A stretch of DNA of 64,000 nucleotides. Source: Evansella clarkii. Its GTDB lineage: Bacteria > Bacillota > Bacilli > Bacillales > Salisediminibacteriaceae. The stretch lies in NCBI RefSeq assembly GCF_002019695.1, contig NZ_KV917376.1:4656072-4720071 (forward strand), written 5' to 3'. Below, piece by piece: positions 20,876-61,230 of the stretch. Position 1 is the first letter of the stretch. Each line of letters begins with the position of its first letter. Under the pieces are notes generated by a model. The model searched no databases. It was not told the origin of the DNA and saw nothing but the letters and a program-made list of their open reading frames with translations. The position numbers and the translations under genes are program-made.

Positions 20876-21129
20876 AGACCCAGATCGTTGAGAGTAACAG
20901 TGCTCCCGTCAGGGCATTTCAATGTGTCCACGTATTTTTGATCTTCCAGGACCGATAAACTTTCAGGTTTATTACCTGTATCAATTTCGTACGCAAAATA
21001 CTGAGCTTTAATCAGATCCTTTGTGGCCTCACATCCTTTTTCTGAAGCCATGCTCTGATTTTTTGCAAGATTTGGCACGGCGATCAGCAGAAGTATAGAA
21101 ATGATAACAAGGACAATCATCATTTCAAT
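20872..21129 (-). pseudogene. comGC: comGC 3' part, cut off by prophage integration
   Basis: The segment encodes the body of the major pseudopilin: the rest of the hydrophobic helix (IEMMIVLVIISILLLIAV) and the globular part with Cys in EKGCEATK and LKCPDG. The start codon and the peptidase site are missing here; they lie 40 kb away at 61162-61230. Joining the two at the shared 10-bp core gives an intact 105-residue ComGC. Upstream phage sequence supplies an in-frame ATG at 21150 with AGGA nine bases before it, but the resulting peptide begins MLIPLVIEMM and lacks the G-F cleavage site. Confidence 0.95.
21120..21129. repeat. Prophage attachment core, left end (attL)
   Basis: TCATTTCAAT on the plus strand, identical to 61161-61170. 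The host side is comGC 3'; the phage side starts GACTAGGGG. The short core is normal for large serine integrases. Confidence 0.9.
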
Positions 21130-21171
21130 GACTAGGGGTATTAACATATATTTTTTCCTAAAATAGACAAA

Positions 21172-21200
21172 AGAGGAGCTGACCAAATGGTCAGCTCCGT
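21172..21200. terminator. Hairpin terminator behind the Panacea-linked toxin gene
   Basis: The perfect inverted repeat GGAGCTGACC / GGTCAGCTCC with a 4-base loop is followed on the minus strand by TCTTTTG. It lies between the toxin gene and attL and would also limit read-through from the prophage into comGC. Confidence 0.75.
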
Positions 21201-21217
21201 TATAATTGCAGATAATA

Positions 21218-21775
21218 TTATTCTCCATACTCGCAGTATGGACAAAAATCATATCGATTGTAATCAGCCTGATTATGATGCTCGCTTTCATGAATTAAAT
21301 GGTGATAATCAACAAATACTGGTGTTAGACAGTTGTTAGTATAATCTCTTATAGCAATAAGGCGGATATTTTGAGTGATCCCAAATTGCCACAGAGATGG
21401 ACCCGCAACTTTTCCATCGCTAAACTTATGGCCATGGATGTTTTCAATAATAGTGACTACTTCATCTAGCTTATCTTCTGCTATCGGATGACAATGCGGC
21501 CATGCACCCGTTCCGCCAGATTTGATAATACTCTTCCAGTTTTCTTGAATGACAGGTATTACCTTGTGAAACAATTCGAATATGTATGTTGCAAACATTG
21601 TTTCGTCTTTTAATTTGTTTGTATATCCCTTTTTTGATATACTTCTTAACCAATCTTTATTAGAAAGATCAAAAGTTAAGGGGGACTCTGATGTATTAGG
21701 ATCAGTCCCCCTTTGAACATTTTTGCTTACATCTTTCTTGTTTTTGCCAATTCTCTTTCTACCACTTTTACCCAT
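21218..21775 (-). CDS. Candidate toxin of a Panacea-type toxin-antitoxin pair
   Basis: This 185-residue protein has a Lys/Arg-rich N-terminus of about 30 residues. The core pattern is NIRLIAIRDYTNNCLTPVFV followed by DYHHLIHES, which recalls the RLxGFxxDNxFxxLxFDxxHxxYP pattern I associate with phage-borne RelE/ToxN-like toxins. The C-terminus has clustered His and a CPYC motif that could bind zinc. It starts one base inside the stop of the upstream Panacea antitoxin (TGATG), so they form an operon. The function is inferred from that partner; the protein itself I do not recognise with confidence. Confidence 0.6.
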   Translation of the reverse strand: MGKSGRKRIGKNKKDVSKNVQRGTDPNTSESPLTFDLSNKDWLRSISKKGYTNKLKDETMFATYIFELFHKVIPVIQENWKSIIKSGGTGAWPHCHPIAEDKLDEVVTIIENIHGHKFSDGKVAGPSLWQFGITQNIRLIAIRDYTNNCLTPVFVDYHHLIHESEHHNQADYNRYDFCPYCEYGE

Positions 21776-22239
21776 CAATCAATATACTCCACTTGCTGAA
21801 TGTAATAATTAAAAATATCTATGTCTGATATTTTTTCATTGCACCTTTCAATTGGGTTGTAACCTTTCCTTGCATTTCTCCACGGGTCTTCTTTATGAGT
21901 AATGGTTTCTAATTCATTACCAGTAAATTCGCCATACTCTTCCCAAACCTGTTCCAGTATATCCTCTATTTCTTCAGGTAAATCAGGTGAAAAGTCTTTT
22001 TTGGGAATGTTCTGATACCCGTAATTACGATATTCAAAATATACATCAGGGATAACTGGTCCATGTACCCAGGCTTCGAAATCTTCTTCAAAAAGCCGAT
22101 TTTCCAATTCCTCGGAATCTTCATTTTCTAAAGTTAATGTCCAGGAATAAGCATAATAAAGGAGTTTTTGCAGCTTTTTAGGTGACATGGAATCTTTGGA
22201 TAAAAACCAATTGATCACATTTTGTAATTCTGGACTCAA
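21775..22239 (-). CDS. Panacea-domain (DUF4065, SocA/GepA-like) antitoxin
   Basis: This protein of about 154 residues starts at TTG 22239 with GAGG nine bases upstream; the longer open frame upstream lacks a site. The Panacea signature is clear: SPKKLQKLLYYAYSWTL near residues 20-36 and FEAWVHGPVIPDVYFEYRNY near 58-77. Panacea domains are known promiscuous antitoxin domains that neutralise unrelated toxins encoded next to them. Here the partner is the gene behind it. The position at the prophage edge beside attL fits a lysogen-maintenance or anti-phage module. Confidence 0.88.
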   Translation of the reverse strand: MSPELQNVINWFLSKDSMSPKKLQKLLYYAYSWTLTLENEDSEELENRLFEEDFEAWVHGPVIPDVYFEYRNYGYQNIPKKDFSPDLPEEIEDILEQVWEEYGEFTGNELETITHKEDPWRNARKGYNPIERCNEKISDIDIFNYYIQQVEYID

Positions 22240-22410
22240 TGTGGTCACCCTCTTTCTTTGATAATTATTTTTAACATAAGGATATAGCAAAAATATGCAA
22301 AAAGATAGTATTTTGACAAAAAATCCATAATTCTTTAATATTTGTATTCCTTTTTTTGTGTTCATAGTAACTTATTTATGTCCTATTTTACTACTTTTTA
22401 TTCAATTACC

Positions 22411-22424
22411 CAAACATATGTTCT
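22411..22424 (+). promoter_or_regulatory. LexA/DinR-like box before the YolD gene
   Basis: CAAACATATGTTCT matches 12 of 14 positions of the Bacillus SOS consensus CGAACRNRYGTTYC. It lies 50 bases before the YolD-like start, next to a possible promoter TTGTTT-17-TATCCT. Confidence 0.65.
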
Positions 22425-22473
22425 TGTTTTTGGAGGTTTATTTTTGTATCCTACATATAAGGGGTGATCAACT

Positions 22474-22815
22474 ATGAAGGAAATAGACATGTCAAAAAAC
22501 AAAGATCGAGGAACAATAAAGTGGACAGCCATGATGCTTCCGGAACATATTGCTATGTTGCGTGATTGGCACCATGAGCAAAGTAAAGTTCCTAAGCCGC
22601 AACTAGAAGAGCAGCAGTACGAGGAATTTTCTTACATTATGGCTGAAGCTATGGAGTTTAACAGAGAATTAAAGATTACTTACTGGAAGAATGGATTTTA
22701 TGAGGAATTTACTGGCCATGTTCATTACGCTGATCCAGTCACCAAGAGGTTACATATGAAGAAGAATGAGGACATTGAATATATACCGATTGACTGTATT
22801 GTTGCTATAAAGTGA
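22474..22815 (+). CDS. YolD-like protein
   Basis: This 113-residue protein begins with a polar stretch and RGTIKWTAMMLPEHIAMLRDW, the YolD-family hallmark. YolD-like proteins usually sit next to Y-family polymerases (UvrX/YqjW) and are SOS-regulated; no polymerase gene is adjacent here. AGGGGTGAT precedes the ATG. It is one of few plus-strand genes in the left half of the prophage and has its own LexA-like box and terminator, so it behaves as a moron expressed in the lysogen. Confidence 0.88.
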   Translation: MKEIDMSKNKDRGTIKWTAMMLPEHIAMLRDWHHEQSKVPKPQLEEQQYEEFSYIMAEAMEFNRELKITYWKNGFYEEFTGHVHYADPVTKRLHMKKNEDIEYIPIDCIVAIK

Positions 22816-22956
22816 TTTGTCGAACAAAAATTGTATACTTTTGTAATTTTCTGATATATATTGGAATTAGGAGCAGAGGACTTAGCAAGGAGTCCTGGGA
22901 AAACTGTTCCGTAAAAGAGTGGGTATGGAGAAGTCCTGCTCTTTTTTTTGTATGTG

Positions 22957-22987
22957 AAAAGCCCGGAATTAACCGGGCTCTTTTTTA
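22957..22987 (+). terminator. Terminator between YolD gene and endolysin
   Basis: GCCCGG AATTAA CCGGGC followed by TCTTTTTT on the plus strand. It probably ends the plus-strand YolD transcript; the minus-strand T-tract is weaker. Confidence 0.8.
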
Positions 22988-23995
22988 TTATCCAAACATA
23001 TGACCCCAAGTTGCTGGTCCAAGGATTCCGTCATTTGTTAATGAACTAAACCCTCGCTGATAACTTCTCACAGCTGCTGCAGTTTGTGGTCCATAAATAC
23101 CGTCAACAGTTACCCCTATGACACGTTGCACAGCACGTATATCAGTGCCGCGAGGATAAGCTCCTCGATCATGACGGCGGACACCCACATATCTTACAAT
23201 CATCCTTAATCTTTGAATTGTAGATGGGCCAGGGCGCCCGAAAAAGTTTCCGTTTCTGCTGGAGATATTATGCTTCAACTGGAATCGCTCTATCGCAGCT
23301 AAAGTTTCAGCACCAGGCTTTCCGTCTGCTCCAAACCTAGGCAGCTGCTCACCTGCACCGATCAACAATCGCTGTCCTTGTGTAACTGATAAACCAGCTT
23401 CTTTAAACGCTACTTCGATTTCTGAATACTTCTGTCTGGCTGACATTTTAGCAAAGGACGGAGTGGATCCAGTTGAGCTTGATTTTGTTTGCGTCGGCCT
23501 GTCCACTTTAACTTTTTCGCCCTCCCGGTAAGCTTTAAATTCCTGTCTTAGCCTATTCATATTCTGGCCAGGACATTGTGTATTTTGACCAGGAAACTCA
23601 TTATGGCCCATGACATCATCTACAGTTAGATTAAGGTCATCAATCACTTTTTTAGTACGTTCAAACAAGACCCTTTTTTGACTTGGCGAAAACTCTTTGT
23701 TTGCAACTACGCACATATTATAAATGTAGCTGTTTTGACCTCCTACACCGTTAGTCACCATTTCGTAATCGTAACAGAGCTCTACATCGTTATTATCAGC
23801 ATCTGATAAAATTATTTCAGCATATCCGCCAGTAGACCAAGGAGGACGATATTTGCTCCATGTGTTATTCCAAAATGACCAAAAACCTCCTCTTGCTGTA
23901 CCTGACCAATGCCAAGCCACTTTCCTGATTTGGCTTTTAGATCGTCTGGTATTTCGTTTTGGTGTTTGCGATCTCAAATCAATAATTTTACTCAT
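22988..23995 (-). CDS. Phage endolysin: N-acetylmuramoyl-L-alanine amidase with peptidoglycan-binding repeats
   Basis: The 335-residue lysin cuts the bond between muramic acid and the stem peptide. The N-terminal amidase_2 fold spans about residues 1-155, with His in AWHWSG near residue 28 and a second conserved block MGHNEFPG. Two PG_binding_1-like repeats follow, one around residues 200-270 and one at the end with VQRVIGVTVDGIYGPQTA and DGILGPATWG. No signal peptide is present, so export depends on the holin encoded just upstream (four-base overlap). Confidence 0.95.
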   Translation of the reverse strand: MSKIIDLRSQTPKRNTRRSKSQIRKVAWHWSGTARGGFWSFWNNTWSKYRPPWSTGGYAEIILSDADNNDVELCYDYEMVTNGVGGQNSYIYNMCVVANKEFSPSQKRVLFERTKKVIDDLNLTVDDVMGHNEFPGQNTQCPGQNMNRLRQEFKAYREGEKVKVDRPTQTKSSSTGSTPSFAKMSARQKYSEIEVAFKEAGLSVTQGQRLLIGAGEQLPRFGADGKPGAETLAAIERFQLKHNISSRNGNFFGRPGPSTIQRLRMIVRYVGVRRHDRGAYPRGTDIRAVQRVIGVTVDGIYGPQTAAAVRSYQRGFSSLTNDGILGPATWGHMFG

Positions 23996-24222: not shown

Positions 24223-24236
24223 ATAAAAGCCTCCCT

Positions 24237-31178: not shown

Positions 31179-34100
31179 TTACAATCCTTCACCCATACGC
31201 TGGTTTGCTTTTTTCCAAAGCCTTGTTGCTCCCCGATGTGTTATTGGCTCAGGGCTAGTATAGTGAACGTGTGTGTCTCCTTTTTTCTGTTTCAGTAATT
31301 CCATCATCATGGCCATTGCTTCTCCCATCCGTTCAATAGTTTCCTCCAGTTTATCCATACGATCACTGCCTCCAGGATTAGGCAACTGCCCTGGTCGTTT
31401 TGCCCCTCCTCGACTTTCAATATCTTTACCTGCAAGAGCAAGCAGCTTCATAGCTTCTGTGGCTCGTGACGGATCTGTTGGGATTACATACTCTGGATAA
31501 CCGCCGTCAGCCAGAAGAGCAAACATCTTATCTTTAATCAGGCCTCCTGTTTTAAACCCTTTAGGATTTACAGGAGTACCGTTTTTCCTGATCTCGTAGT
31601 GAACGTGTGGGCCCGTACTCATACCAGTAGATCCTACTAAAGCAATTCTCTGCCCTTTCGTTACAACTTGTCCGGCACTTACAAGGTTTCTGCTGTTGTG
31701 TGCGTAATAGTGGTCAAAGATTCCAGACTTTACAATAACAACGTTACCAAAGCCACCTGACCACCCACTAAACGATACGTTACCTGCGCTTTGTGAGTGC
31801 AGAGGAGTTCCTGTAGGCGCAGCGTAGTCTATCCCGTTATGATGCCTTCTCTGACCCGTGACCGGGTGTGTTCTCCACCCGAAAGGGGAAGTCATCCGGA
31901 ACTGTGCGCCGAATGAAGGAGATCCACTTGGCGCTACTTCGTCCTGTGTACCTTTTAACTTCTCGACTACGGCATCACGTAACCCAGAAAAACTACCTCT
32001 CATGATACCGCCAGCAAAATCTTCTGCTCTTGGCATGCTTACGCCAACAAACTCCATCGCCTTTTCAAACAGTTTACGTGGAGCCTCTAACAGCCACCCA
32101 ACAGCGTCACTTGCAAGTCCTTTGATATTTTGCCATCCTTGCTGCGCTTTTCCTTTCACCCAGTCAAACGCTCTGCCGACTCCCGATTCATAGCCAGGCA
32201 AGCCCATGCCATCTTTCAGGAGCTTCTCTGTTTCTTTGTTAGGAAGGACGCTGGATCCTTTAGGAAGGTTAAGAAGTTCAGCTCCCTTTTCACCCAGAAT
32301 CGTGTAACCCATGCCCGGAAGATGCGCGAGTTCCCTTCCTTTTTCTCCGACTATTGCCGGACCGCCTGGATGGTTTTTTGTTCCTAAAGCGTACTGAGGA
32401 ACATTAATTTCTGGAATACGCAGACTAACCCCTATTTTCCCCAGTAGATTATTCATTCCTCCGACTACTTTATTAACTCCAGTTTCCAGAGTGGAACCCA
32501 CTGTATTAGAGAAAGACTTTATTCCCGAGGTGGCTTTGCTCGCCATATTTTTAATTCCGTCACCAATTCGGCCAGGTAACTCCCGTGCAGCAGTAACCAT
32601 ATCGTCAAAACGATCTTTCAGGTTATCTCTTATATCACTAGCCAGGTCACGGAAACGGTCTTTCATGCCGCTAAATCTTCTGACTGCCTCATCTCGCATG
32701 GAAAGAACCCGGCCGATTGTATTATCCTTCATCCGCTGCATTCTCTCTGTCACGCCGTCACGTAACCGATTTCCTAAATCAAAGAAGCGATCTCTTAAAT
32801 TGGTGAACCTTTCTACAGCCTGGTCACGCATATTAGAGATTCTTCCAATAGTGTTGTCTCTTAATGCCTGAATCAAATTGGTTACTCTGTCACGAAGAGC
32901 AGTTCCTATTGAAATGAAAGTGTCCTTTAAATTCGTAAATCTTTCGACCGTATTGTCGCGCATTCGCTTTATGCGATCCTGTACGTTGTCTCGCAAATTT
33001 TGAATACTGTTTAGGACTTTGTCTCTCAATTCTTTCGTTCTTTGGATTGCTCTGTCTTTCAGATCAACAAAGAAACCAATTACTCTGCTGACCATTTCAG
33101 ATACAATTTCACGGGCTCGTCTTCCTAAATTCAGGAACCAGTCTACGATTGCATTAACCATATCCGGGACAATAGAGTTACCCACGAGATTCATATAGAG
33201 ATCTCTGAAGAAATCAATGATATTTCGGATAAATGATAGTGCAAAATCAATAATGGCTTTAAATCCGCCTGAAAAGACGGTTTTAATTCCCTCCATCATT
33301 TTACTTATGTCGCCGGTCAGTAATCCTGCCAGAATTTGAATAATACCCATAACAGTATTTTTGGCAACTTCAAAAACTAAAACTATAGCATCCCAGGCAG
33401 TTTTAAATATTAATTCCACTGCTGGCCAGAAAGTTTTAAAGGCATCCCATAAAGCGCTTAGGAAAATCATTACTCCTGTCATGATATTGGAAATGGCGCC
33501 GGTTATGGATTCCTCGTTTTCTCGCCAAAACTGGGTGATACTCGATGCAAAATCTTTAAAGGTTTGCACCACGTTATCAATTACTGGTTTTATATATTCT
33601 ATCGCTGCCTGGAAGGCTTTTTTAGCGCCGGCAAGAGCTATATCTACCCGTTCACGGAAAGTATCCGAAGAACGATAAGCTACCACAAATCCGGCTGTTA
33701 AAGCCCCAATTACAGCTACAGCAATTCCGATTGGTCCAGTGAGTGCTGCAAAGCCAACTTTTAATGCTGGCAGAATACCTCCCACTCTACCAACCCACAT
33801 AAATAATCTTCCGAATAAAGAAACTATGGGGCCAGCTACTTTCAGGAATGTCCCGAACGCGAGTGCCATTGGGCCAATCGCAACTGCTACAGCTGCTGCA
33901 ATCCCAATCCACCGCCTGGCTCCATCAGACAGTTCGCGCCACCAGTTGATAAGCTTCATCACATTCTCAGTTACGCCATCAATAGCATTCTGGAAGTAAG
34001 CTCGTATCTGTGGCATATTCGCAAGAACCCAATCGAGCATTCTTTGGAAGTGAGGCATAAGCTCTAAGCCTATTGAATTTACGACTCCGCCCATTGCTCG

Positions 34101-35144
34101 CTTTATGCTGTCCTGGGCATCCTGGAATTCTTCAGCTGCTTTTATCTGGTCTTCACTCATCACAATTCCAAGCTCTTCGGCTTTCTGTTTCGCCTCTTCT
34201 ATGGTCATAGACCCATCACGTAAAGCAGGAAGTAGTTCCTGACCTAGTTTGTTACCAAACAATTCTCCTGCAAGTGCTGCCTGTTCTGATTCATCCGTCA
34301 TCTCAGAAAGAGTCTGAATGGATGTAGCAAATGCGTCTTCTGTGGAAATTGTTCCGTCTCTTACGCCGTCCATGTCTACTCCAAGGCGTGTGAGTGCGTC
34401 AGCATATTTCTCATTTCCTTCAGCAGCCAATCCCATGCGCTGGTTTAACCTCTGCAACGCATTTTCCATGCTTTGGTGTGATAACCCATTCTGGCTGGCC
34501 CAGTAGTCCATTTCCTGATAAAAGTCAGTAGAGACGCCCATTCTGGCAGCGCCTTTAGCGACTGCATCAGCATTTTCGGTTACTTTGTTCGTTAGCGCAA
34601 ACAAAGACACCCCAAGACCTGCAGCTGCAGCCCCTACACCGAGAACAGCTCCTGTCCAAACCTTACCAAAATTCTGTATGCCTTCCCCGGCTTTAGACAT
34701 TTTCTTCCCGGTTTCGTCTAACATTTTTCCGGTCTTTGTCCATGGAGAATTGGCGATGCGCTGCTCTTCATTTAACTTTTTAAGCTCTTTTCGCACGCCT
34801 TCTGTGTAGTTTTGAAGGTTGTTTAACTCTGCTGACTGCTTGTTGAATTCCTGGGCAGCCTTTTCTGCTTCTTTGGATCCTTCACCATGCTGCTCGACCA
34901 TTTCTTTATACTTCTTTTCTGCTTCGTCTGTAATTTTGGTTTGTACTTCAATTTTCTTGTTTAAGCCTTCCAGCCGTTTTTCGTACTTCTCTACAGAACG
35001 ATCGCTCCGGTCAAAAGCAGACATGTTATTACGCATTTCAGAGTTAACCGTTTTAAGGCGGTCTTTTAATCCTGTTAACCCACGTTCAACCTGTGTGGTT
35101 TCTAAATCTAATCCAATGGATAACCCTTTTATCCTGTCTGTCAT
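31179..35144 (-). CDS. Tape measure protein with M23 endopeptidase domain
   Basis: The 1321-residue protein sets tail length and travels into the cell with the DNA. An N-terminal coiled coil (1-150) precedes a TP901-type core (about 170-350), hydrophobic segments around 410-490, and a repeat region. Near residues 1085-1185 lies an M23 LytM-like peptidase with GWRTHPVTG, HHNGIDYAA and the HxH motif GPHVHYEI. The zinc ligands are intact, so the virion can probably cut cell-wall cross-bridges during entry. The last 100 residues are polar. Length predicts a tail of roughly 200 nm by the usual rule of about 0.15 nm per residue. Confidence 0.95.
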   Translation of the reverse strand: MTDRIKGLSIGLDLETTQVERGLTGLKDRLKTVNSEMRNNMSAFDRSDRSVEKYEKRLEGLNKKIEVQTKITDEAEKKYKEMVEQHGEGSKEAEKAAQEFNKQSAELNNLQNYTEGVRKELKKLNEEQRIANSPWTKTGKMLDETGKKMSKAGEGIQNFGKVWTGAVLGVGAAAAGLGVSLFALTNKVTENADAVAKGAARMGVSTDFYQEMDYWASQNGLSHQSMENALQRLNQRMGLAAEGNEKYADALTRLGVDMDGVRDGTISTEDAFATSIQTLSEMTDESEQAALAGELFGNKLGQELLPALRDGSMTIEEAKQKAEELGIVMSEDQIKAAEEFQDAQDSIKRAMGGVVNSIGLELMPHFQRMLDWVLANMPQIRAYFQNAIDGVTENVMKLINWWRELSDGARRWIGIAAAVAVAIGPMALAFGTFLKVAGPIVSLFGRLFMWVGRVGGILPALKVGFAALTGPIGIAVAVIGALTAGFVVAYRSSDTFRERVDIALAGAKKAFQAAIEYIKPVIDNVVQTFKDFASSITQFWRENEESITGAISNIMTGVMIFLSALWDAFKTFWPAVELIFKTAWDAIVLVFEVAKNTVMGIIQILAGLLTGDISKMMEGIKTVFSGGFKAIIDFALSFIRNIIDFFRDLYMNLVGNSIVPDMVNAIVDWFLNLGRRAREIVSEMVSRVIGFFVDLKDRAIQRTKELRDKVLNSIQNLRDNVQDRIKRMRDNTVERFTNLKDTFISIGTALRDRVTNLIQALRDNTIGRISNMRDQAVERFTNLRDRFFDLGNRLRDGVTERMQRMKDNTIGRVLSMRDEAVRRFSGMKDRFRDLASDIRDNLKDRFDDMVTAARELPGRIGDGIKNMASKATSGIKSFSNTVGSTLETGVNKVVGGMNNLLGKIGVSLRIPEINVPQYALGTKNHPGGPAIVGEKGRELAHLPGMGYTILGEKGAELLNLPKGSSVLPNKETEKLLKDGMGLPGYESGVGRAFDWVKGKAQQGWQNIKGLASDAVGWLLEAPRKLFEKAMEFVGVSMPRAEDFAGGIMRGSFSGLRDAVVEKLKGTQDEVAPSGSPSFGAQFRMTSPFGWRTHPVTGQRRHHNGIDYAAPTGTPLHSQSAGNVSFSGWSGGFGNVVIVKSGIFDHYYAHNSRNLVSAGQVVTKGQRIALVGSTGMSTGPHVHYEIRKNGTPVNPKGFKTGGLIKDKMFALLADGGYPEYVIPTDPSRATEAMKLLALAGKDIESRGGAKRPGQLPNPGGSDRMDKLEETIERMGEAMAMMMELLKQKKGDTHVHYTSPEPITHRGATRLWKKANQRMGEGL
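32568..32963 (-). repeat. 132-bp in-frame repeats in the tape measure gene
   Basis: Three units begin with MRDNTV (32963), MRDQAV (32831) and MRDEAV (32699), exactly 132 bases apart, each of about 44 residues with the pattern MRDxxVxRFxNLxDxF. Partial further units flank them. Such repeats let tail length change by unit gain or loss. Confidence 0.85.
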
Positions 35145-38049: not shown

Positions 38050-39213
38050 TTAGGCTCCTGCTGGTTCAGATGTTGTGAAATTGATATCCAAATCATAAAG
38101 TAGAGCAGCTTTATTGTCACTTGGCTTACCATTTGCAAATTGCTTAATCGTGTAAAGCATCGCATCTTCAATAGCCAGTGTCTGGTCAAACTTGTTTGTT
38201 TTATATCCTCCGGCCACAGCTGCAAGATACTCGCCTTTAACGAAGAACAGAGCTTTTTTCTCTGGAATCTCCTCTGATTCAACCACTCGGATATTATAAG
38301 GTAAAGATGTCACCCATTGACCATTGGCAGTTTGAATCGTATTGCGAGCTTCTACACTTATAGCATCGACAGGATTAACGACCATAACAATTTTATTTAA
38401 TACTTTGCGTGCCTTACCTTTTTCATTAGTTGAAAGAGATTTAATGACGTCATGAAGTTCTCCCGCAACAACCTCCCCTTTGTCAGAAGGAGCAAAGGTT
38501 AAAGTACCTGAAGAAGTCTTAGTTGTAACTGCGCCTGTTTCAGAATCTTTATTTTTCATTAGACCGATCGGCTCATTTTGGGCAGGTCCTCGACCATTCA
38601 CTAATCCATATTCCAGACCGACTGAGTAAGATTCAACTAAGAGAGTACGAACGTAACGCTCCACATATTCCGGACCAAGCTCCAGCATGTCTTTTGGGAT
38701 AACAGCAAAAGCTGTAAGCTTTAATTGTCCAATCTGCTCTTCACTAAACGCCGCACTCACTTGCCCTTTTATTTCACCAAACAGTTGCCCCCAGGCATAA
38801 GCCTTTGTTGGATCTGATTTTATGAACCTGGTTACTGCTCCTAAATCTTTCAGTCCAATTGCATCAAGGAGTGGGTGTTCTTCTACCAGATCCTCAAAAA
38901 TTCTATCTTGCGTAGTAACCGGAAGGATGGAGTCCTCATCAAAACCACCAAACTCGATTGCTTCGTTGAAGAATTTCCTTTCAACAGAAGTAAGAACATT
39001 CTGTCCGCGTGCTGCTAAAATTTGAGCATCGTGAACTTCATTACGAGCTGCATTAGTAATTTGTTCCGTTAAATCAGTTTGTAGTGCAGTAAACATTTCT
39101 GTGAAGGCTGACTCCAATTGCTCCGGAGTTGAGTTCTCATCTTTCATAACGTTCATATAAGCTGCTTTTTTCGTTTCAAAATTTTCCATCTTACCTTTTA
39201 ACTTCATCACCAT
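38050..39213 (-). CDS. HK97-family major capsid protein
   Basis: This 387-residue protein has an N-terminal helical scaffold-like delta domain (about 1-95) followed by the HK97 fold, starting near LPVTTQDRIFEDL. IPKDMLELGPEYVERYV and NGRGPAQNEPIGLMKN are typical family segments. The prohead protease encoded just upstream should remove the N-terminal region during maturation. GGAGG precedes the ATG. Confidence 0.95.
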   Translation of the reverse strand: MVMKLKGKMENFETKKAAYMNVMKDENSTPEQLESAFTEMFTALQTDLTEQITNAARNEVHDAQILAARGQNVLTSVERKFFNEAIEFGGFDEDSILPVTTQDRIFEDLVEEHPLLDAIGLKDLGAVTRFIKSDPTKAYAWGQLFGEIKGQVSAAFSEEQIGQLKLTAFAVIPKDMLELGPEYVERYVRTLLVESYSVGLEYGLVNGRGPAQNEPIGLMKNKDSETGAVTTKTSSGTLTFAPSDKGEVVAGELHDVIKSLSTNEKGKARKVLNKIVMVVNPVDAISVEARNTIQTANGQWVTSLPYNIRVVESEEIPEKKALFFVKGEYLAAVAGGYKTNKFDQTLAIEDAMLYTIKQFANGKPSDNKAALLYDLDINFTTSEPAGA

Positions 39214-39219: not shown

Positions 39220-40011
39220 TTACCTCCATTTTTTAAGAAAATTAAAAGAACCTGCATCCTTTTTCGCGCCTGGTGCGATACTTGGAGAAGGTTCTTTTTG
39301 TGTTTTATTTAGAATGCCTTTTAATTCGTTCATGATTTGTTGCTTACTTGCGTCATTTAGAACAAGTTCATCATCTTCTTCATTTTCCTCTTCCTCTGAC
39401 GTGCCTTCCAGTGCATCCGCAAAACCAATCTCTAAAGCCTTTTTAGCACTGAACCAGGTCTCAGCATCAACCTTTTCTCGAATTTCTTCGCGGCTAACAT
39501 TTGCTTTAGTCATGTAAATGTCAATAATACCTTCTTCTAATTCGTCAAGGATGTCTGCTTCTTTCCGCATTTCCGTTTTTGTTCCCCAAACGATATTACT
39601 CGCTTCATGAATCATCATCATTGAACCAAGACCCATGTACAATTCGTCAGCTGCCATTGCGATAACTGATGCTGCAGAACAAGCCCATCCGTCCACATAA
39701 ACTGTGACTTTTCCATCGTGACGTTTTAATCGGTTGTAGATAGCAATTCCCATGAATGCATCTCCGCCAGGGCTGTTTAAGTGAATTTTGATATCATGGC
39801 CTGATGCTTGATTCAAAGCCTCATCCATGTCGCTTGCTGAGAAACTATCACTCCACCAAGAGTTTCCGATAACGCCGTATATGGTAATGTCGCTCGTTTT
39901 AGTTTCCTCGTTATGGACAACATTAAATTTTTGAGGGATATCCATTAGCTGTTGAATATAGCTCTGATTTTTAAATTGTTTTAAGAAATCTTTTCTGCTC
40001 ATTTTTGTCAT
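39220..40011 (-). CDS. ClpP-like prohead protease
   Basis: This 263-residue protein has a ClpP/crotonase fold. The motif HLNSPGGDAFMGIAIYNRL near residue 80 precedes the nucleophile region WACSAASVIAMAAD, with Ser in the GSAAS-equivalent position. His follows in MMMIHEAS. It cuts the capsid delta domain and itself in HK97-type heads. It overlaps the portal gene by four bases. Confidence 0.93.
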   Translation of the reverse strand: MTKMSRKDFLKQFKNQSYIQQLMDIPQKFNVVHNEETKTSDITIYGVIGNSWWSDSFSASDMDEALNQASGHDIKIHLNSPGGDAFMGIAIYNRLKRHDGKVTVYVDGWACSAASVIAMAADELYMGLGSMMMIHEASNIVWGTKTEMRKEADILDELEEGIIDIYMTKANVSREEIREKVDAETWFSAKKALEIGFADALEGTSEEEENEEDDELVLNDASKQQIMNELKGILNKTQKEPSPSIAPGAKKDAGSFNFLKKWR

Positions 40012-41147
40012 TCATTCTCACCCCCTTCAACTGCATCAGCTGTTTGATAGTTTTTTGTTATAACAAATTTGTCTAACTCTGGATCGTCCGAACGTTCTTT
40101 ACCAAACAATTCCCTCACCTCGTTTCGAGTGAAAGCACCAGAAGAAATTAGCTTGTCTACTGCCTCTGAATTTTGAATTAAATCCCTTTCTGTCAATCCG
40201 AATACATCAATTCGTTCGCCATTTAAAAAATCATCTTTTGAAATTAATTTTGCGTTTAATTCGTCCTCAATCTTTAACACGAACGGGCCATTACAGAACT
40301 TAACAAATGCTTTGATACTCGTTTCATAATCCGAAAGTTCTCCATGAATTAGTGCTTTTGGGATTCCAAGTATGTTGGCCACATCATCAACAAGAGATTT
40401 TTTGAGTTTAGTAATTTCTTCAACAGACTGGCCTTTTCCTTCACCCTTTGCAACCTCGTTATAATCAAATCCTTTTAATTTCGGAACAAGCGCCACAGTG
40501 TTTTTCTTAAAAGAAGAAAATAATCGATCGATGAAATTTTGTAGATTCTTTTGTGTTTCTTCGTCTAAAGATTGACTAGACCCAACACCGACTGTTCCTC
40601 GAATTTGATTGTTCCTCATACTAATATCGATCATACGACTGAATAAATCACCAAAATCATTAAACATACCTTCCATAAATTTTGTCAGCTTTTCATTGTT
40701 GTACTCGATGTATAGAACTTCATCCATTCTAAAGTTACGTCTAAATGTGTAGTCTTTAACTGTTACTTCCCGGAACACATCTGGATACAAAGCGTATTCA
40801 TCACGAGTGAATGTATCAGCAATTAATAGATCGTTTGTATCGGTCAACACAACAAGAACTTCATTGTCATAAATTAATTTATAGACAAACCTTTGCCAAA
40901 AACTAGCTGCACTTTGATCTGTATTAGGGCGTACATTTAATAAATAATGCCATTCATTAAATTGTCTTTTATCACCTATCATATACCTAAAATCAGACTG
41001 ACTTATACTTCTGCCAATAAAGTTGATACACGTTTCTAATGCAATCCTTTTTAGATAGGCTCGGTGATTCGTTTCATAAGTAAGATCCAGGTCAAACATT
41101 GATTTAAGCTCTTTGTTACGTCCAAGTATTTTATCTAACCATCCCAC
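40008..41147 (-). CDS. Portal protein
   Basis: This 379-residue protein belongs to the HK97 gp3-like portal family, with YKLIYDNEVLVVLTDTNDL around residue 90, ILGIPKALIHGELSDYET around 240, and an acidic C-terminus. Portals form the dodecameric DNA gate. The order terS-terL-portal-protease-capsid is intact. Confidence 0.93.
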   Translation of the reverse strand: MGWLDKILGRNKELKSMFDLDLTYETNHRAYLKRIALETCINFIGRSISQSDFRYMIGDKRQFNEWHYLLNVRPNTDQSAASFWQRFVYKLIYDNEVLVVLTDTNDLLIADTFTRDEYALYPDVFREVTVKDYTFRRNFRMDEVLYIEYNNEKLTKFMEGMFNDFGDLFSRMIDISMRNNQIRGTVGVGSSQSLDEETQKNLQNFIDRLFSSFKKNTVALVPKLKGFDYNEVAKGEGKGQSVEEITKLKKSLVDDVANILGIPKALIHGELSDYETSIKAFVKFCNGPFVLKIEDELNAKLISKDDFLNGERIDVFGLTERDLIQNSEAVDKLISSGAFTRNEVRELFGKERSDDPELDKFVITKNYQTADAVEGGENE

Positions 41148-41168: not shown

Positions 41169-42851
41169 CTAAAAATTAAGAGACCCAAGAACAGTTAATG
41201 TGTCTTCAATACTCTCATCTTCCAGTTCATTGGCACGGTACAGCGCGTGGATAAATGCCTGGAAACCATCTGTTTTTCGCTTCACTTCTTCCTTTTTTAA
41301 GAACTGTTTGCCATGTTGCGTTTCTTTCACATAGACATTATTGGTAAACCACCGCATTAATGGGTTATCTCCAAAAATGAATTTATGGTTTGCGAATCCG
41401 TCCTCCACACGTGGAGCAAGAAGAGGATGGATGCTGGATGGACGGCGTATAGCTTCCACTTCAAAGCCTTGCTCTTCTAATAGAGGCCTTAATATATCAA
41501 GCTTGTAATTATCCGCAATTATTTTTTCCACTCCGTGTTCTTCCCGCATTTCTATAAACCAGTTAACTACATGCATAGGGTTTAAGGACGGCTCGTCCAC
41601 AACTTTCATTAACCCTTGTTGTTCCCATTTTTTAATCGGTGCTTTTTTCCCTGTTCCGAAATCATTGGCGCTGTTTGAGTAACCGTAGTGAACATCACAA
41701 AAATGTTTAATGGCGAAGGTGAACGATTTAAAAGCGAATTCGTCTCCCTTTTTAAACAACAGTCCACAGGTGGCGAAATCTCTTACGCTACCGAAGTCTA
41801 AAGAGCCTATTGGCTTTGAATTCAATTCGAAAAATGGACGGTTAGTGGCGTCCAGCTCTTCTGGAGTCGCTACTGAGTTTTCCAGGTTATCCATGATGAA
41901 GTTCATTCGCTTAGTGACGAACGCTGCATAGCCGGAAGGGTTATTAGTTAACCTCTTGTACTCCTTCATCACTTTACTGAATAATCTTTTCCCGCGTTTA
42001 TTTAAAGGCTCCTGGAGAGCCGGGTTTGCCTTTGCCCATTTAGAGGGGTCGTCCATTTCGTCCAGATCATCTAATTCACAGATGTACGGGAATATCCCAC
42101 CGAATTCAGTTACTCCGTTAAGGATGTCCTCACATTCTCGGTACTTGATATCGAAATAACCTTCTCGTACATAACCCTTTGTTCCGATAAAAAATTGCCT
42201 TCCACAGTCTACCTTTCCAAGGCCTCCGGAAAACACGTCAACAATATCAGAGGATTCCATTTCGTGGTACTCATCGTATATAACCGCACCTTCACGCCCG
42301 CCATCTTGTGAGCTGGCGTTACTTGTCTTATATTCAAAAACGGATTGCGTCTCTAATCCGGTAATGCTGCTTTTAAAAGCATCGAATTCTTCTTTCAGAT
42401 CCTCGTTACCTTGTTTATTTATGGTGCGAAAACACTCCAAGAAACTTCTCTTTGCCTGCTTTTCAGAGTTAGCAACAATGGACACATCGTAATAATCAAT
42501 CCCATGCAAAGAGCTGATAAAGTAATTCGCGAGCGTAGAAATATAACCATTCTTCCCGCCGCCTCGCCCCATGTTAATGACAAACTCATCAAACACAGGC
42601 TCGTCATCATCTTTACGGAACAAAAAAATGAATGGGGTTATAAACGTCTCCCATTCATCTAATTCAAAATACCATGCTTCACTGAATTCTATATAATTTT
42701 CGATTTGCTCATCGTCAAAATAGTAAATGTCATCCCTGGGTAAAATGTATCCTTCAATCAAAGCAATTAACTGGATTCTTTTTTTGTTAAGTAAAAGATC
42801 GCCGCGTTTCCATTTTTTTATATATTCGTCAACATATTTATTGTGCAACAT
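41169..42851 (-). CDS. Terminase large subunit
   Basis: This 560-residue packaging motor has an ATPase half with the glycine-rich Walker A-like loop INMGRGGGKNGYISTLA near residue 92 and a Walker B/catalytic region AVIYDEYHEMES near residue 190. The nuclease half contains IGSLDFGSVRDFATCGLLF near residue 330 and acidic residues further on. It resembles the HK97-type (P27-linked) terminases that make cohesive ends. Confidence 0.95.
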   Translation of the reverse strand: MLHNKYVDEYIKKWKRGDLLLNKKRIQLIALIEGYILPRDDIYYFDDEQIENYIEFSEAWYFELDEWETFITPFIFLFRKDDDEPVFDEFVINMGRGGGKNGYISTLANYFISSLHGIDYYDVSIVANSEKQAKRSFLECFRTINKQGNEDLKEEFDAFKSSITGLETQSVFEYKTSNASSQDGGREGAVIYDEYHEMESSDIVDVFSGGLGKVDCGRQFFIGTKGYVREGYFDIKYRECEDILNGVTEFGGIFPYICELDDLDEMDDPSKWAKANPALQEPLNKRGKRLFSKVMKEYKRLTNNPSGYAAFVTKRMNFIMDNLENSVATPEELDATNRPFFELNSKPIGSLDFGSVRDFATCGLLFKKGDEFAFKSFTFAIKHFCDVHYGYSNSANDFGTGKKAPIKKWEQQGLMKVVDEPSLNPMHVVNWFIEMREEHGVEKIIADNYKLDILRPLLEEQGFEVEAIRRPSSIHPLLAPRVEDGFANHKFIFGDNPLMRWFTNNVYVKETQHGKQFLKKEEVKRKTDGFQAFIHALYRANELEDESIEDTLTVLGSLNF

Positions 42852-45740: not shown

Positions 45741-45815
45741 TGGTACGCCTACCAGGAATCGAACCTGGACTGTGAAGGTAGAAACATCATGTGCTATCCG
45801 TTACACCATAGGCGC
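45741..45815 (-). tRNA. tRNA-Arg (UCU), prophage-encoded
   Basis: The minus strand folds as a cloverleaf of 75 bases with encoded CCA. Acceptor GCGCCTA pairs with TAGGCGT, D-stem GTGT with GCAC, and T-stem CCAGG with CCTGG around TTCGATT. The anticodon loop TTTCTAC gives UCU, reading AGA. The anticodon stem has one T-T mismatch. It lies inside the late operon between a terminator and small phage genes. Confidence 0.93.
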
Positions 45816-46256: not shown

Positions 46257-46793
46257 TCTTAAATTTCTTCATTGCTTTGTCCATGCTGTCTTGGTTGATA
46301 CCGATATACCTTAATGTAACCTTTGGATCAGAGTGGTTGAATATCTCCTGGAGAAGGGCCACATCCTTTGTCTGCTGATAAAAATGAAGCCGAATGTCTT
46401 CCTTAATGTATGGGTCCCTATGTCGTCCAGGTTAACGTGTGCAGCTGCCTCACGTAATATCTTATAAGCCATACTCCTGCCAATCGGTTTATTAATCCCT
46501 TTCCTACTGGCAAATAGATATTCATGGTCCTCCTTGTCTTGGATGTACTCATTAAGTTCTTTCCTTAATGCTGCTGTCATATCAATTCGTTTTTGCTTAT
46601 TCGTTTTCGTTTCTCTCAAATTAAAATACGGCTTCTTAGCGTCCTGCACTCTCAGTGGGAGGATATCCGATATTCTCAATCCACTATTTATCCCTACCAA
46701 GAAGAGAATATAATTACGATGGCTCTTTTCTTTCAAGAATCGTTTTATCTCTCTAATAACTTCAGGATCCCGAATCGGCTGAACAAAGTTCAT
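46252..46793 (-). pseudogene. Tyrosine recombinase/integrase, frameshifted
   Basis: The first frame (to about 46400) encodes a Xer-type catalytic domain with GLRISDILPLRVQDA (catalytic Arg) and GTHTLRKTFG (HxxR). It then goes out of frame. The other frame continues the protein: HFYQQTKDVALLQEIFNHSD, then RYIGINQDSMDKAMKKFKI with the catalytic Tyr, and a stop at 46252. One base lost at about 46390 explains the break. The intact product would be about 180 residues, the small integrase type often paired with ArpU in Bacillus phages. Confidence 0.85.
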
Positions 46794-56289: not shown

Positions 56290-56290
56290 A

Positions 56291-57195: not shown

Positions 57196-57210
57196 AGGTA
57201 GGTGGAGAAT

Positions 57211-57648
57211 GTGAACGAAATTAGTAATGTTATCAGAGAATTAAGGGGAAAAGATTCCTTAAGATCCGCAGCTAAAAAAATTGGCATAAGTCACAGTTAT
57301 CTAAGTATGTTAGAAAGTGGCTTAGATCACAGAACTAAGGCTCCAATAAAACCATCTCCGGATACATTGAGGGCGATTTCAGAAGCTTACAACTACCCTT
57401 ACAAGAAACTACTCGAAATTGCAGGGTACATTGAACCCGAAGAAAATAACTACGACCCCCTCGAAGATTTAAAACAGTACATGATCGAAAACAACATGCA
57501 AGACATGGACTTCGGATTTTTTGATATAGAAAAGTGGAAAAAGCTAGGACCCGATGAAATTGACGAGGTTAAACGGCATTTTGAGTGGGTAGCCGCAAAG
57601 GCCGAGCAGATGGCTAGAGAAGAAGAGGAACGAAAAAAGAAGAAATGA
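57211..57648 (+). CDS. Prophage repressor (XRE/CI-like)
   Basis: The start is taken at GTG 57211 (MNEISNVIRELRGK); a GTG at 57202 is the alternative. The HTH region spans residues 12-65, with SLRSAAKKIGISHSYLSMLE and PSPDTLRAISEAYNYPYKKL. The C-terminal half is acidic and helical, without a LexA-type protease, so induction would need another factor such as the ImmA-like protease encoded at 59105. It diverges from the Cro-like gene. Confidence 0.88.
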   Translation: MNEISNVIRELRGKDSLRSAAKKIGISHSYLSMLESGLDHRTKAPIKPSPDTLRAISEAYNYPYKKLLEIAGYIEPEENNYDPLEDLKQYMIENNMQDMDFGFFDIEKWKKLGPDEIDEVKRHFEWVAAKAEQMAREEEERKKKK

Positions 57649-57900: not shown

Positions 57901-58231
57901 TGATAGCAGTCGAAAGCTTGTCGTCAGTAACTCAGACTCTCGATAATGTAACTACGGGGGTAGATAATACACTAATGACCGGCAACATCAAATCAGTTGT
58001 AGAAGAAGCCTGCAGAATCAGTCCTAAGCTTTCCGACTACGGTATTAATTTTATTCTTCTTTTCTTTTATTATACCATTTATATGTATGATAACCATTAT
58101 TGGTGTTCTTCTTTTTTTTATCTTTTTACTGTTTAAATTTGTCATTTTAAGATATATTTACTACTTAGTGGTGATAATTGGCTTTTGCCAATCACATATA
58201 AAAATACATTACATAAAGGGGAAATTTTGTT
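57901..58231. other. Unexplained stretch after the group I core
   Basis: No convincing gene. An open plus frame through 58136 starts inside the ribozyme and is not credible as it stands. A small hairpin CTAC-GGGGG-GTAG lies at 57952. The codons around VVEEACRISPKL may be the worn 3' end of an IS605-type tnpB, which would make the whole an IStron remnant; this is only a suggestion. Confidence 0.4.
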
Positions 58232-58843: not shown

Positions 58844-58854
58844 ATTAATATAAA

Positions 58855-58882
58855 GAAAGGCCCTTATCGGGCTTTTCTTTTC
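58855..58882 (+). terminator. Terminator of the lipoprotein gene
   Basis: GAAAGGCCC TTATC GGGCTTTTC followed by TTTT. Confidence 0.85.
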
Positions 58883-58892
58883 AAACAAAAAG

Positions 58893-58906
58893 GGAACAAA
58901 TGTTCT
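58893..58906 (+). promoter_or_regulatory. LexA-like box before the ImmA-integrase unit
   Basis: GGAACAAATGTTCT matches 12 of 14 positions of CGAACRNRYGTTYC. It lies between the lipoprotein terminator and the first small ORF of the integrase unit. No good -35/-10 pair is visible next to it, and the A/T flanks make it a hairpin too, so the call is tentative. Confidence 0.4.
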
Positions 58907-58924
58907 TTTTGGGAGGTGATACTG

Positions 58925-59092
58925 CTGGGTGAATGGGTAAAAATCTCTGAAAATAGGATTCAAATAATTGATAAAGGGCTTAAGATTCCGGTCTTCACTT
59001 CATTTAAATTAATAGATGGAGAAATATATGGAAAATTAGAAGGTTACAAGGTAGCTCCTGAAAAATTGACCCCTAGCTACTACCAACATTAA
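58925..59092 (+). CDS. Small phage protein upstream of ImmA-like gene
   Basis: This ORF of about 55 residues (GEWVKISENRIQIIDKGLKI and onward) has a strong GGGAGG eight bases before a CTG at 58925. No ATG, GTG or TTG is available in a good position: GTG 58916 abuts the site itself. It ends three bases before the AAGGAG of the next gene. Beta-rich and unrecognised; translation may start at CTG. Confidence 0.5.
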   Translation: MGEWVKISENRIQIIDKGLKIPVFTSFKLIDGEIYGKLEGYKVAPEKLTPSYYQH

Positions 59093-59104
59093 GGAGTGGT
59101 CACT

Positions 59105-59596
59105 GTGCAATACATCCATAGCCACCGAGAAGAATGGGTACTTCGCTTTTATAAACGTATGCAAATCAATCACCCAGATGATATTGATATAAAGGTAATC
59201 GCTCGACATCATCGTATTTATTTAAAATACCACTATAAACCCACAACATTCGTCCAGATGGGCAATTATCGGGCAATCAATCTGCAATATGGACTGACTA
59301 CTCAGGAAGAGAGGATTCACTTTTTTCATGAATTAGGGCATTTGTTGAGACATTCTGGTAGTCAATTATTTATGACTGATAGTTTTAAAGAGTTGCAGGA
59401 ATGGGATGCTAATTTTTTTACCTTTTATGCCTCTCTCCCGTTTCATATGATAAAGGATTATGATTTTGATGATAAAGGTACGATTATTGAATTAAGTCAG
59501 GTATTCATGGTTCCGGAGTGGTTTGCTGCTAAACGGGTTGAGTTTATAAAAAAGAAAACTCATGAATATCAACTTCTCATGAAAGGAGTCATATAA
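59105..59596 (+). CDS. ImmA/IrrE-type zinc metallopeptidase
   Basis: The GTG start at 59105 follows AAGGAG by eight bases. This 163-residue protein has the HExxH motif HFFHELGHLLRHSG near residue 80 and a downstream ELQEWDANFF with the third ligand Glu. ImmA proteases cut phage or ICE repressors after DNA damage (known from ICEBs1). The repressor at 57211 is the obvious target. It ends directly before the integrase gene. Confidence 0.9.
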   Translation: MQYIHSHREEWVLRFYKRMQINHPDDIDIKVIARHHRIYLKYHYKPTTFVQMGNYRAINLQYGLTTQEERIHFFHELGHLLRHSGSQLFMTDSFKELQEWDANFFTFYASLPFHMIKDYDFDDKGTIIELSQVFMVPEWFAAKRVEFIKKKTHEYQLLMKGVI

Positions 59597-61132
59597 ATGC
59601 GTTGTGCTAAATACATAAGAGTCAGCACTCATCTGCAGGAGAAGAAGTTTTCCCTAGCTGCTCAGCAGTTAGAATTAGAGGAATACGCAAAGAAACAAGG
59701 GTGGAAGATAATTGGGGAATTCAAAGACGTAGAAACGGGCGGCAAGCTTAACAAAAAGGGATTAAGTAAAATGCTAGACCTTGTAGAAGATGGCCGGATA
59801 GATGTTGTCCTCTGTATCGACCAGGACAGACTTTCAAGGCTTGATACAGTTGCCTGGGAATACCTTAAATCCACATTACGGGACAACAATGTAAAGATAG
59901 CTGAGCCGGGGACCATTACAGACCTTGGAGACGAGGATCAGGAGTTCATTTCTGACATTAAGAACCTTATTGCCCGTAGAGAGAAAAAGTCTATTGTGAA
60001 GCGAATGATGCGCGGAAAACGGCAGCGACTTCGCGAAGGTAAGCCCTGGGGAAAGCCGCCGATCGGATATACTTACAATAAGGAAACAAGCACTTTTCAT
60101 ATTGATGAGAAATGGGCTTGGGTAATCCCTATGATTGACCGCTTATACCTCGAAGAACAACTCGGTATGAAGACCATTGCACACAAGCTAAATGAGGTGT
60201 CCAGGACTCCGCGTGGGACTCTCTGGAATGAAACGCTTGTATTCCGTCGATTGGTCTCTAAAGCCTTCCACGGTGTCATGGAGAAGAAATTCTCTAATGG
60301 GGAAACCATTGAAATAGAAAATATATACCCTCCATTAAGAACCAAAGAAACTTACGAACGAATCCAGGAAGAACGAAAAAAACGAGGGACCATTTACAAG
60401 GCCACCAGCCGGCGCAGAGAAAATTTAAATATACTTAGACGAACTCTTGTTACATGTGGCCTATGCGGGCGAAAACTTAGCTTACAGCAAAATTCTCCCT
60501 GGCATGATCCGAATTATTATTTAAAGCACGGAAGAAAACAAATGGGGTTAAAGGAAGAGGCAGTTTGTGATATTTCTGTTAATACAAAACGTTTTGAACC
60601 AAACTTAATTAAAGCAATCAAAGACATTTTGACAGACGAATCATTTGCAATGAAGTATATAAATTTAGAAACTACTCCTGACGATCTTACCGAGTTAAAA
60701 CAAAAAACAAGTATTGCTAAAAAGAATATGCAAGCAGTCCAGGAAAAGATTGATCGATTACTCGACCTATACTTGGATGGTAAATTTTCAAAGGAACAGC
60801 TTGACCAAAGGCAAAAGCAATTAGAGATACAATTAAATCAGCTTGAAGAGGAATATAAACAGGCTACAGCGAAGTTAGAGGCATATAAGCGTAAAGAGTG
60901 GAATTACGAAACAATTTATGCTTATCTGGAGATAGCAAAAGACTTCGACACAGACCTCACCCACTTGGAACGAGCGCAGCTGCTCGGTAGCCTCTTTCCG
61001 AAAGCTATCCTCTATAAAGAGAAGATTGTCTTAATTGGAACCATAAACGAAGAATTGCCACTGGAAATTGAGATACCCATCGAATTAGACCGTTATTTAT
61101 GGCACCACAGCAAGAAAAAGAAGGGTGTTTAA
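59597..61132 (+). CDS. Large serine recombinase (prophage integrase)
   Basis: The 511-residue protein has an N-terminal resolvase domain with catalytic Ser10 in YIRVSTHLQEKKFSLAAQ and DQDRLSRL near residue 80. The recombinase domain (about 160-265) follows, then a zinc ribbon with CGLCGRKLSL. A coiled-coil region lies at about 355-425, before the C-terminal end. It catalyses integration at attB in comGC; excision needs a directionality factor not identified here. It ends 28 bases before the attR core and its stop codon overlaps that of the truncated comGC on the other strand. Confidence 0.96.
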   Translation: MRCAKYIRVSTHLQEKKFSLAAQQLELEEYAKKQGWKIIGEFKDVETGGKLNKKGLSKMLDLVEDGRIDVVLCIDQDRLSRLDTVAWEYLKSTLRDNNVKIAEPGTITDLGDEDQEFISDIKNLIARREKKSIVKRMMRGKRQRLREGKPWGKPPIGYTYNKETSTFHIDEKWAWVIPMIDRLYLEEQLGMKTIAHKLNEVSRTPRGTLWNETLVFRRLVSKAFHGVMEKKFSNGETIEIENIYPPLRTKETYERIQEERKKRGTIYKATSRRRENLNILRRTLVTCGLCGRKLSLQQNSPWHDPNYYLKHGRKQMGLKEEAVCDISVNTKRFEPNLIKAIKDILTDESFAMKYINLETTPDDLTELKQKTSIAKKNMQAVQEKIDRLLDLYLDGKFSKEQLDQRQKQLEIQLNQLEEEYKQATAKLEAYKRKEWNYETIYAYLEIAKDFDTDLTHLERAQLLGSLFPKAILYKEKIVLIGTINEELPLEIEIPIELDRYLWHHSKKKKGV

Positions 61133-61230
61133 TGTACCCTTTTTATGTTCTTGCCCCCCTTCATTTCAATTAAGGTAAACCCTTTTTCATTTCTAAGTCC
61201 CTTGTTAATTAACGATTTAATCTTTTTCAT
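61129..61230 (-). pseudogene. comGC: comGC 5' part, cut off by prophage integration
   Basis: ATG 61230 with AAAGGAG upstream starts MKKIKSLINKGLRNEKGFTL followed by IEM, containing the prepilin peptidase site G-F-T-L-I-E. At 61161 host sequence ends; phage sequence adds ten codons and a stop at 61129. The 33-residue product cannot form a pilin. Joined at the core to 21129, it restores ComGC. Confidence 0.95.
61161..61170. repeat. Prophage attachment core, right end (attR)
   Basis: TCATTTCAAT, identical to 21120-21129. The host side continues TAAGGTAAACCC (comGC 5'); the phage side is CTTCCCCCC read leftwards. Confidence 0.9.

Follow-up and report, generated by a model that had tools for sequence, protein, structure and literature searches.

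A prophage with a large serine integrase splits the competence gene comGC of Evansella clarkii at its prepilin signature codons

Integrase families directed at the competence genes comYC, comFA, comK and comM have been described (PMC4774983), and according to a survey, large serine recombinases are enriched in competence genes (PMC10083194); these and the other papers cited below are represented by excerpts of their text. Prophages in comGC/comYC are in print for streptococci, Lactococcus and Macrococcus. The Listeria phages A118 and phi10403S likewise carry a serine integrase and split a competence gene, but their target, comK, is a regulator gene, and regulated excision is reported for them (PMC4774983, PMC7029219). 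The Staphylococcus pseudintermedius prophage SpST71A also lies in the comG operon, but in comGA and thus at another insertion point (PMC7029219). The present analysis concerns a prophage inside comGC of Evansella clarkii, located in a stretch of 64,000 nucleotides of contig NZ_KV917376.1 (the window, to which all positions refer). Our reading is that a tailed phage with a large serine integrase occupies the codons of the prepilin signature, that it would end the formation of the competence pilus, and, less firmly, that its integration functions spread as a module; we give this a probability of about 0.87. The kind of insertion is already known in print. What this analysis adds is the integrase clade, its conserved target, the dyad in the phage attachment site (attP), the exchange between the backbones of different phages and a positional match to a distant streptococcal lineage. 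No comGC prophage of Bacillaceae was recognised among the matches listed in open-licence papers.

The comGC gene is cut at Ile-Glu-Met codons, and the two pieces meet at a 10-bp word, the attachment (att) core, which occurs at 21120 and at 61161.

61161..61230, minus strand: N-terminal half of comGC (start codon, MKKIKSLINKGLRNEKGFTLIEM, to the core inclusive); 100% match, residues 1-23
20872..21129, minus strand: C-terminal half of comGC (core to the stop codon at 20872); match to residues 20-105
21120..21129: left att core, TCATTTCAAT
61161..61170: right att core, TCATTTCAAT
21120..61170: prophage including both cores; 40,041 bp from core to core

The core is the longest word common to both ends, but because three 9-bp words are also shared, it is weak evidence by itself. 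The split is accepted because of the joined reading frame and its colinearity with a relative. The joined frame encodes 105 residues and matches the NCBIfam ComGC model NF040999 with 98.1 bits (cut-off 75) and the cleavage domain TIGR02532 with 36.8 bits (cut-off 16.3). Compared with the intact comGC of genome G003, whose ComGC is the closest among the relatives (96%), the joined site is colinear across the junction at 89% nucleotide identity. The frame is uninterrupted in all seven same-genus loci that were fetched, from eight same-genus genomes. Among 59 other genomes, the best ComGC match starts at residue 13 or earlier in every case and contains a stop in three, in local alignments that may overrun a junction. 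A second ComGC was not found in the same genome; outside comG, the next match has 31% identity. The pilin matches near 2.54 Mb were rejected as a second ComGC, since their neighbor is a PilC-like protein and they seem to form a pilus locus of their own.

An earlier model-made reading of the letters alone (the sequence-only reading) had proposed that two halves 40 kb apart join at the 10-bp core to give a 105-residue ComGC, and had named a similar split in relatives or an intact second copy as grounds against it. The joined frame and the G003 alignment bear out the proposal, and neither counter-observation was made. The prophage is a site-specific insertion within the coding sequence of a competence gene that is whole in prophage-free relatives. 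That the assembly is wrong, or that two separate pilin genes were taken for halves of one, has a chance close to nil. No point in its support was found, and it is opposed by the exact frame, the colinearity with G003, the same architecture in five other genomes and dyad arms that come from both ends.

The comG operon lies on the minus strand. comGA and comGB (63657-61556) and the start of comGC (61230) are followed by the 40-kb prophage, beyond which lie the rest of comGC and then comGD to comGG, down to 19262.

62578..63657, minus strand: comGA; NF041000, 335.8 bits (cut-off 300)
61556..62581, minus strand: comGB; NF041012, 260.7 bits (cut-off 240)
21175..21198, minus strand: terminator-like hairpin (10 pairs, T-rich tail) between the prophage and the comGC body
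20872..21291, minus strand: chimeric open reading frame (ORF) of 139 residues, phage-derived 5' end and ComGC body; no match to the prepilin cleavage domain
20420..20875, minus strand: comGD; NF040982, 80.6 bits (cut-off 70)
19981..20547, minus strand: comGE-like pilin ORF (pilin motif from about residue 40); NF041013, 23.4 bits, under the cut-off of 49
19644..20132, minus strand: comGF-like; NF041002, 65.2 bits, under the cut-off of 80
19262..19654, minus strand: comGG-like; NF041014, 23.6 bits, under the cut-off of 40

The interruption of the operon that the sequence-only reading described is therefore confirmed, with comGA, comGB and the comGC start separated from comGD-comGG. Its statement that the body of comGC has lost the start codon and the cleavage site holds in part: the cleavage domain is not matched, whereas a 139-residue frame with a phage-derived start is open. 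The N-terminal piece keeps the start codon and the cleavage motif and ends after GFTLIEM and ten phage-coded residues. The chimera alone reaches 82.8 bits with NF040999, over the ComGC cut-off, from profile position 6 on. Before the Glu residue it carries IPLVI in place of GFTLI, and the Gly of the cleavage site is thereby lost. This Gly is required at prepilin cleavage sites. The hairpin at 21198-21175 sits just upstream of the C-terminal comGC piece, on its coding strand. A promoter scan at the left junction found 8 candidates against 6.7 expected, no signal above shuffled sequences. On the opposite strand, an ORF of 67 residues (61303-61506, plus strand) lies between comGB and the comGC start.

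Given the known biology of ComG proteins, no processed ComGC would be made in this arrangement and no competence pilus would form. The genes comGD-comGG would also be severed from the comG promoter, and the lysogen would be non-transformable until the phage leaves and the gene is restored. DNA uptake is thus probably stopped in comGC lysogens. The other competence genes show no decay. ComK has two matches over the cut-off and ComEC is present, all free of inner stops, and the seven comG frames are stop-free. Their ratios of nonsynonymous to synonymous substitution rates (dN/dS) relative to G003 range from 0.04 to 0.21, with comGC taken as joined and comGE over 108 codons only. From the open frames and the low ratios, we read the break as young on this time scale or occasionally reversed. 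This bears on the idea of active lysogeny, in which the prophage acts as a switch and reversibly vacates comGC upon induction of competence, like phi10403S in Listeria comK. The exact rejoining of the break, the undecayed comG frames and the intact ComK and ComEC would all agree with it, but the intact genes are equally explained by a recent insertion, and neither a directionality factor nor any competence-linked control was identified. In addition, the pneumococcal phage phiBM6001.3 is described as restoring comGC in about 3% of cells, yet without transformants (PMC10383233). Active lysogeny is considered unlikely.

The integrase gene lies at the right end of the prophage, next to a metalloprotease-like gene.

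59597..61132, plus strand: large serine integrase P0001, 511 residues; phrog_95, 1.1e-78 over residues 1-492
59096..59596, plus strand: metalloprotease-like gene adjoining the integrase; matches in four of the five other comGC prophages compared

The PHROG match over nearly the whole protein agrees with the serine type assigned earlier. Y6, R8, V9 and S10 of the catalytic motif are invariant in all six aligned rows. The Ser of this Y-x-R-V-S motif is presumably the nucleophile. The assignment agrees with Table 2 of PMC8637289 as excerpted. P0001 accordingly has the features of a large serine integrase, with a resolvase domain that bears the catalytic Ser and a long C-terminal recombinase part.

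Among 50,697 phage records, 448 match P0001 at E<=1e-5, all at less than 60% identity, and none of the matches listed (40 and 60) exceeds 30%. A relative at E<=1e-30 is absent from the other 34 of the 35 genomes of the family. In the order sample, 7 of 397 genomes carry a P0001-type integrase at E<=1e-60, and five of these seven have it at comGC, so that its prevalence there is modest (5/397). A profile search at E<=1e-80 found the integrase in 3 of 398 class-sample genomes, in two of them at comGC. A related-locus search of genome contigs gave two distant matches (28% and 27%), and viral contigs yielded 11 integrase loci, of which L085 and L087 lie in contigs also numbered L021 and L022. An integrase tree, which omits the partial frames L090, L091 and L097 and contains L136 in trimmed form, is not relied on because only 3 of its 14 inner branches are fully supported, L136 and L028 form long branches and L028 falls inside the clade.

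Nine of the ten integrases that are at least 52% identical and have visible host flank sit at the same pilin codons. These nine represent six families of Bacilli and three viral contigs. In genomes G107, G201, G193 and G163, a pilin start lies on the opposite strand right after the integrase and ends in GFTLIE or GFTMIE; the same start stands beside the integrase in G561 and in the viral loci L090, L092 and L093, besides the E. clarkii genome itself. The C-terminal half follows at a distance of about 50 kb in G107, 49 kb in G201, 52 kb in G163 and 39 kb in G561. In G193 it falls on another contig, which is what a break between contigs within a prophage of some 44 kb would produce. All five C-terminal halves are ComGC by NCBIfam, four over the cut-off of 75 and that of G163 at 74.5. 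ComGB lies beside the N-terminal half in the three genomes tested (G107, G193 and G561) and about 2.7 kb from it in G163. The end of L093 reads by eye as a ComGB tail, and in L090 and L092 the pilin start is all of the host flank that is visible. Five of the 11 viral loci (L085, L086, L089, L091 and L094) end at or soon after the integrase and have no flank, and three (L087, L088 and L095) hold an undivided attP with no pilin half alongside. Related integrases thus strike the orthologous comGC site in other species. The sequence-only reading had taken the locus for a lone independent case, which does not stand: its integrase belongs to a clade whose members occupy these codons in six families of Bacilli.

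In G163 (L079, 252-2260 and 5037-6678), comGA is split between two ORFs, a stop interrupts comGB and the integrase lies in two frames, which would reflect either a decaying lysogen or assembly errors. If the former, G163 would favor the explanation that the competence of the host was already out of use and the insertion neutral. For the E. clarkii genome this is quite unlikely, in view of its open comG frames with low dN/dS and its intact comK and comEC.

The wider integrase family may have another point of insertion in comGC. The viral contig locus L136 (81-2058) encodes an integrase of 41-42% identity, and the comGC-like start next to it runs on for about 11 more codons before it is cut. The GFTLIEM pattern occurs in 47 stretches of viral contigs, and one of them, L136, has an integrase relative at E<=1e-3; the other stretches were rejected as comGC prophages, being other pilins or other frames. 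A ComGC profile search of the viral contigs for comGC flanks returned 15 loci.

The attP site of the E. clarkii prophage is composed of two phage arms.

21130..21152: phage arm of attP by the left core; forms a dyad with the other arm
61140..61160: phage arm of attP by the right core

Read in the orientation of comG, the att sites have ATHGARAT in common at the Ile-Glu-Met codons. When the dyad centre was searched over each whole attP stretch, the best centre was the GA of the core in all nine sites (three natural and six composed from the arms), and in eight of the nine the dyad exceeded 300 single-letter shuffles at the 5% level. The corresponding host codons 22-23, GAA ATG, are invariant at the DNA level in eight of eight same-genus comGC genes and form the only adjacent fully invariant pair within codons 17-48. 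The alignment of att sites and the symmetry of attP together place the predicted crossover at the GA dinucleotide of the invariant Glu codon. The arrangement is that of an attP of the large-serine-integrase type, with dyad arms about a predicted 2-bp crossover. We therefore propose that the large serine integrase would insert the phage at a bacterial attachment site (attB) formed by the comGC stretch that encodes the prepilin signature GFTLIE-M.

The choice of this target admits two explanations. The signature codons may simply make a good attB, as their DNA is highly conserved, single-copy and non-essential, and the loss of competence would then be a side effect. The invariance of the crossover codons favors this explanation, as does the observed ability of one integrase clade to serve many genera, and it accounts equally well for the sequence data; we place it slightly below even odds. 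Conversely, the surveyed enrichment of large serine recombinases in competence genes seems to go beyond conservation alone (PMC10083194), and the same may be said of the several integrase families found at comYC, comK, comFA and comM (PMC4774983), as far as the excerpts extend. The persistence and spread of the module may owe something to a target that is very conserved and dispensable for growth, and the loss of comGC might in addition remove a route by which the prophage could be replaced through transformation. That preventing such curing is the purpose of the insertion is a hypothesis (PMC4774983, in excerpt).

The remaining prophage genes indicate a tailed temperate phage. Nineteen proteins were scanned against PHROG, with matches to terminase, portal, protease, major head, major tail, tape measure and endolysin families and to anti-repressor, repressor, exonuclease and helicase loader families. 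By these matches, packaging, head, tail, lysis and regulatory genes are present in the 40 kb.

57202..57648, plus strand: helix-turn-helix (HTH) repressor-like protein, 148 residues
54810..55451, minus strand: anti-repressor or Rha-like regulator
41169..42851, minus strand: terminase large subunit; phrog_9, 2.4e-122
40008..41147, minus strand: portal protein; phrog_12, 1.1e-62
39220..40011, minus strand: head maturation protease
38050..39213, minus strand: major head protein; phrog_10, 2.2e-41
31179..35144, minus strand: tail tape measure protein; phrog_167, 7.3e-153
22988..23995, minus strand: endolysin

When 32 prophage ORFs of the window were compared with the prophage pieces of the five other genomes, the integrase was the only one with a match in all five (56-66%), followed by its metalloprotease-like neighbor in four. 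The number of matching ORFs (E<=1e-5) was 11 in G201, 6 in G107, 5 in G163, and 2 each in G193 and G561. The portal belongs to phrog_12 in E. clarkii and G201, to phrog_146 in G107, to phrog_533 in G163 and to phrog_64 in G561, and one terminase type is common to G107 and G561. Of the four G193 proteins that were scanned, two matched helicases and none was structural. A different backbone is thus well supported for G107, G163 and G561 and less so for G201. Since the integrase is shared while the other genes differ mostly or partly, integrase and attP seem to pass from phage to phage as a module.

Several observations weigh against a uniform module that targets comGC and ends competence. In G201, comGB is separated from the comGC start by about 8 kb with ORFs that resemble rRNA and tRNA regions (L078, 3884-8001, read by eye), and the attP dyad is not above chance (13/24, p 0.46). 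G112 carries a degenerate relative of the integrase (56% over about 274 residues) outside comGC, and its comGC is whole; this copy is a relic. The relative in G325 (44%) sits elsewhere, by a gene that resembles that of a coenzyme A-binding protein (read by eye), and the integrase tree places its row within the clade, with a long branch. A second integrase copy in G561 (47%) is also located away from comGC. At the E. clarkii locus, the 139-residue chimera could in principle be translated. Finally, the competence of the host, the loss of transformation and the excision of the phage are predictions.

The printed att sites permit a comparison with the phages of cocci. The Macrococcus phages phiMC1 and phiMP19Msa1099a sit in comGC (PMC6008420, PMC12016501), and the att of phiMC1 is printed as CATTTCAATTAAAGT (PMC6008420). 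Its reverse complement encodes T-L-I-E-M, the same place as in E. clarkii, and it has CATTTCAAT in common with the core described here. These phages belong to another host family, and the likeness is judged by the printed att. The five Streptococcus agalactiae prophages prophiDMC6, 17, 30, 36 and 62 are listed in ComGC with a serine integrase, as here, in a table that puts them between ComGD and ComGB (PMC11357604); their printed att, TAAATTTTTC, is a different core. The streptococcal records Javan94 and Javan308 begin and end within genes, and no att site was seen in them. The integrase of A118 is 25.5% identical to P0001 over 79% of P0001.

The pneumococcal phages agree most closely in position. 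Nucleotides 58 and 59 of pneumococcal comGC are presumably the G and A of the Glu codon. The insertion of Int2b is stated to lie between these two nucleotides (PMC7600539). PPH100 has a serine integrase of 481 residues and the att ACCAACATCTCCACCAA in comGC (PMC8637289), the reverse complement of which encodes L-V-E-M-L-V, at the same codon position as here. The pneumococcal phage phiARI0031, used as a proxy for PPH100 by the length of its integrase (481 residues) and with a comGC location not visible in its record, has an integrase 25% identical to P0001 over 464 residues. Its attP core is ATTGAGATG, and that of the Streptococcus mutans phage phiKSM96 is ATTGAAATG; the arms differ from those of the P0001 phage in both. 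Their dyads centre on TC/GA, with 13/20 for phiARI0031 (p 0.098, not significant) and 15/20 for phiKSM96 (p 0.012). The streptococcal integrases of about 25% identity therefore go with an attP core almost as in the P0001 phage, and since the phiARI0031 integrase is separated in the tree, Int2b and PPH100 probably fall outside the P0001 clade. Even odds are given to the broader proposal that the codon of Glu5, as the single codon that the competence pilin cannot alter, is a recurrent crossover point, used at the same GA by at least two serine-integrase lineages (about 25% identical), and that a competence-blocking cassette spreads across the phage backbones of Bacilli.

Prophage insertion in comGC, which the papers cited here describe for cocci, is hereby extended to a module seen across six families of Bacilli, and both of its att sites could be read. 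The idea of a benefit to the phage becomes testable, since the integrase is defined, attB lies in a gene that a transformable laboratory Bacillus has, and natural attP sequences are at hand. A broken comGC in a genome may also be reversible.

Further features were observed in the prophage. A full-length match to the group I intron model RF00028 (57632-57866, plus strand, 73.7 bits, model positions 1-253) overlaps the 3' end and the stop codon of the 148-residue HTH repressor ORF, which seems an unusual place for such an intron. The whole stretch has one match in the same genome, and relatives give only short partial matches. A tRNA-Arg (TCT) gene lies at 45741-45815 on the minus strand. A protein of 160 residues encoded mid-prophage (46311-46793, minus strand) matches the integrase family phrog_216 and is separate from the serine integrase at the end.

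Elsewhere in the window, pieces of a group II intron (RF01998, RF02001) lie near the start, at 272-568 on the minus strand. A tandem glycine riboswitch (RF00504, 15573-15815, minus strand) is located upstream of a row of large minus-strand ORFs, of which 14338-15429, 12970-14313 and 11510-12973 look, by position alone, like glycine-cleavage genes.

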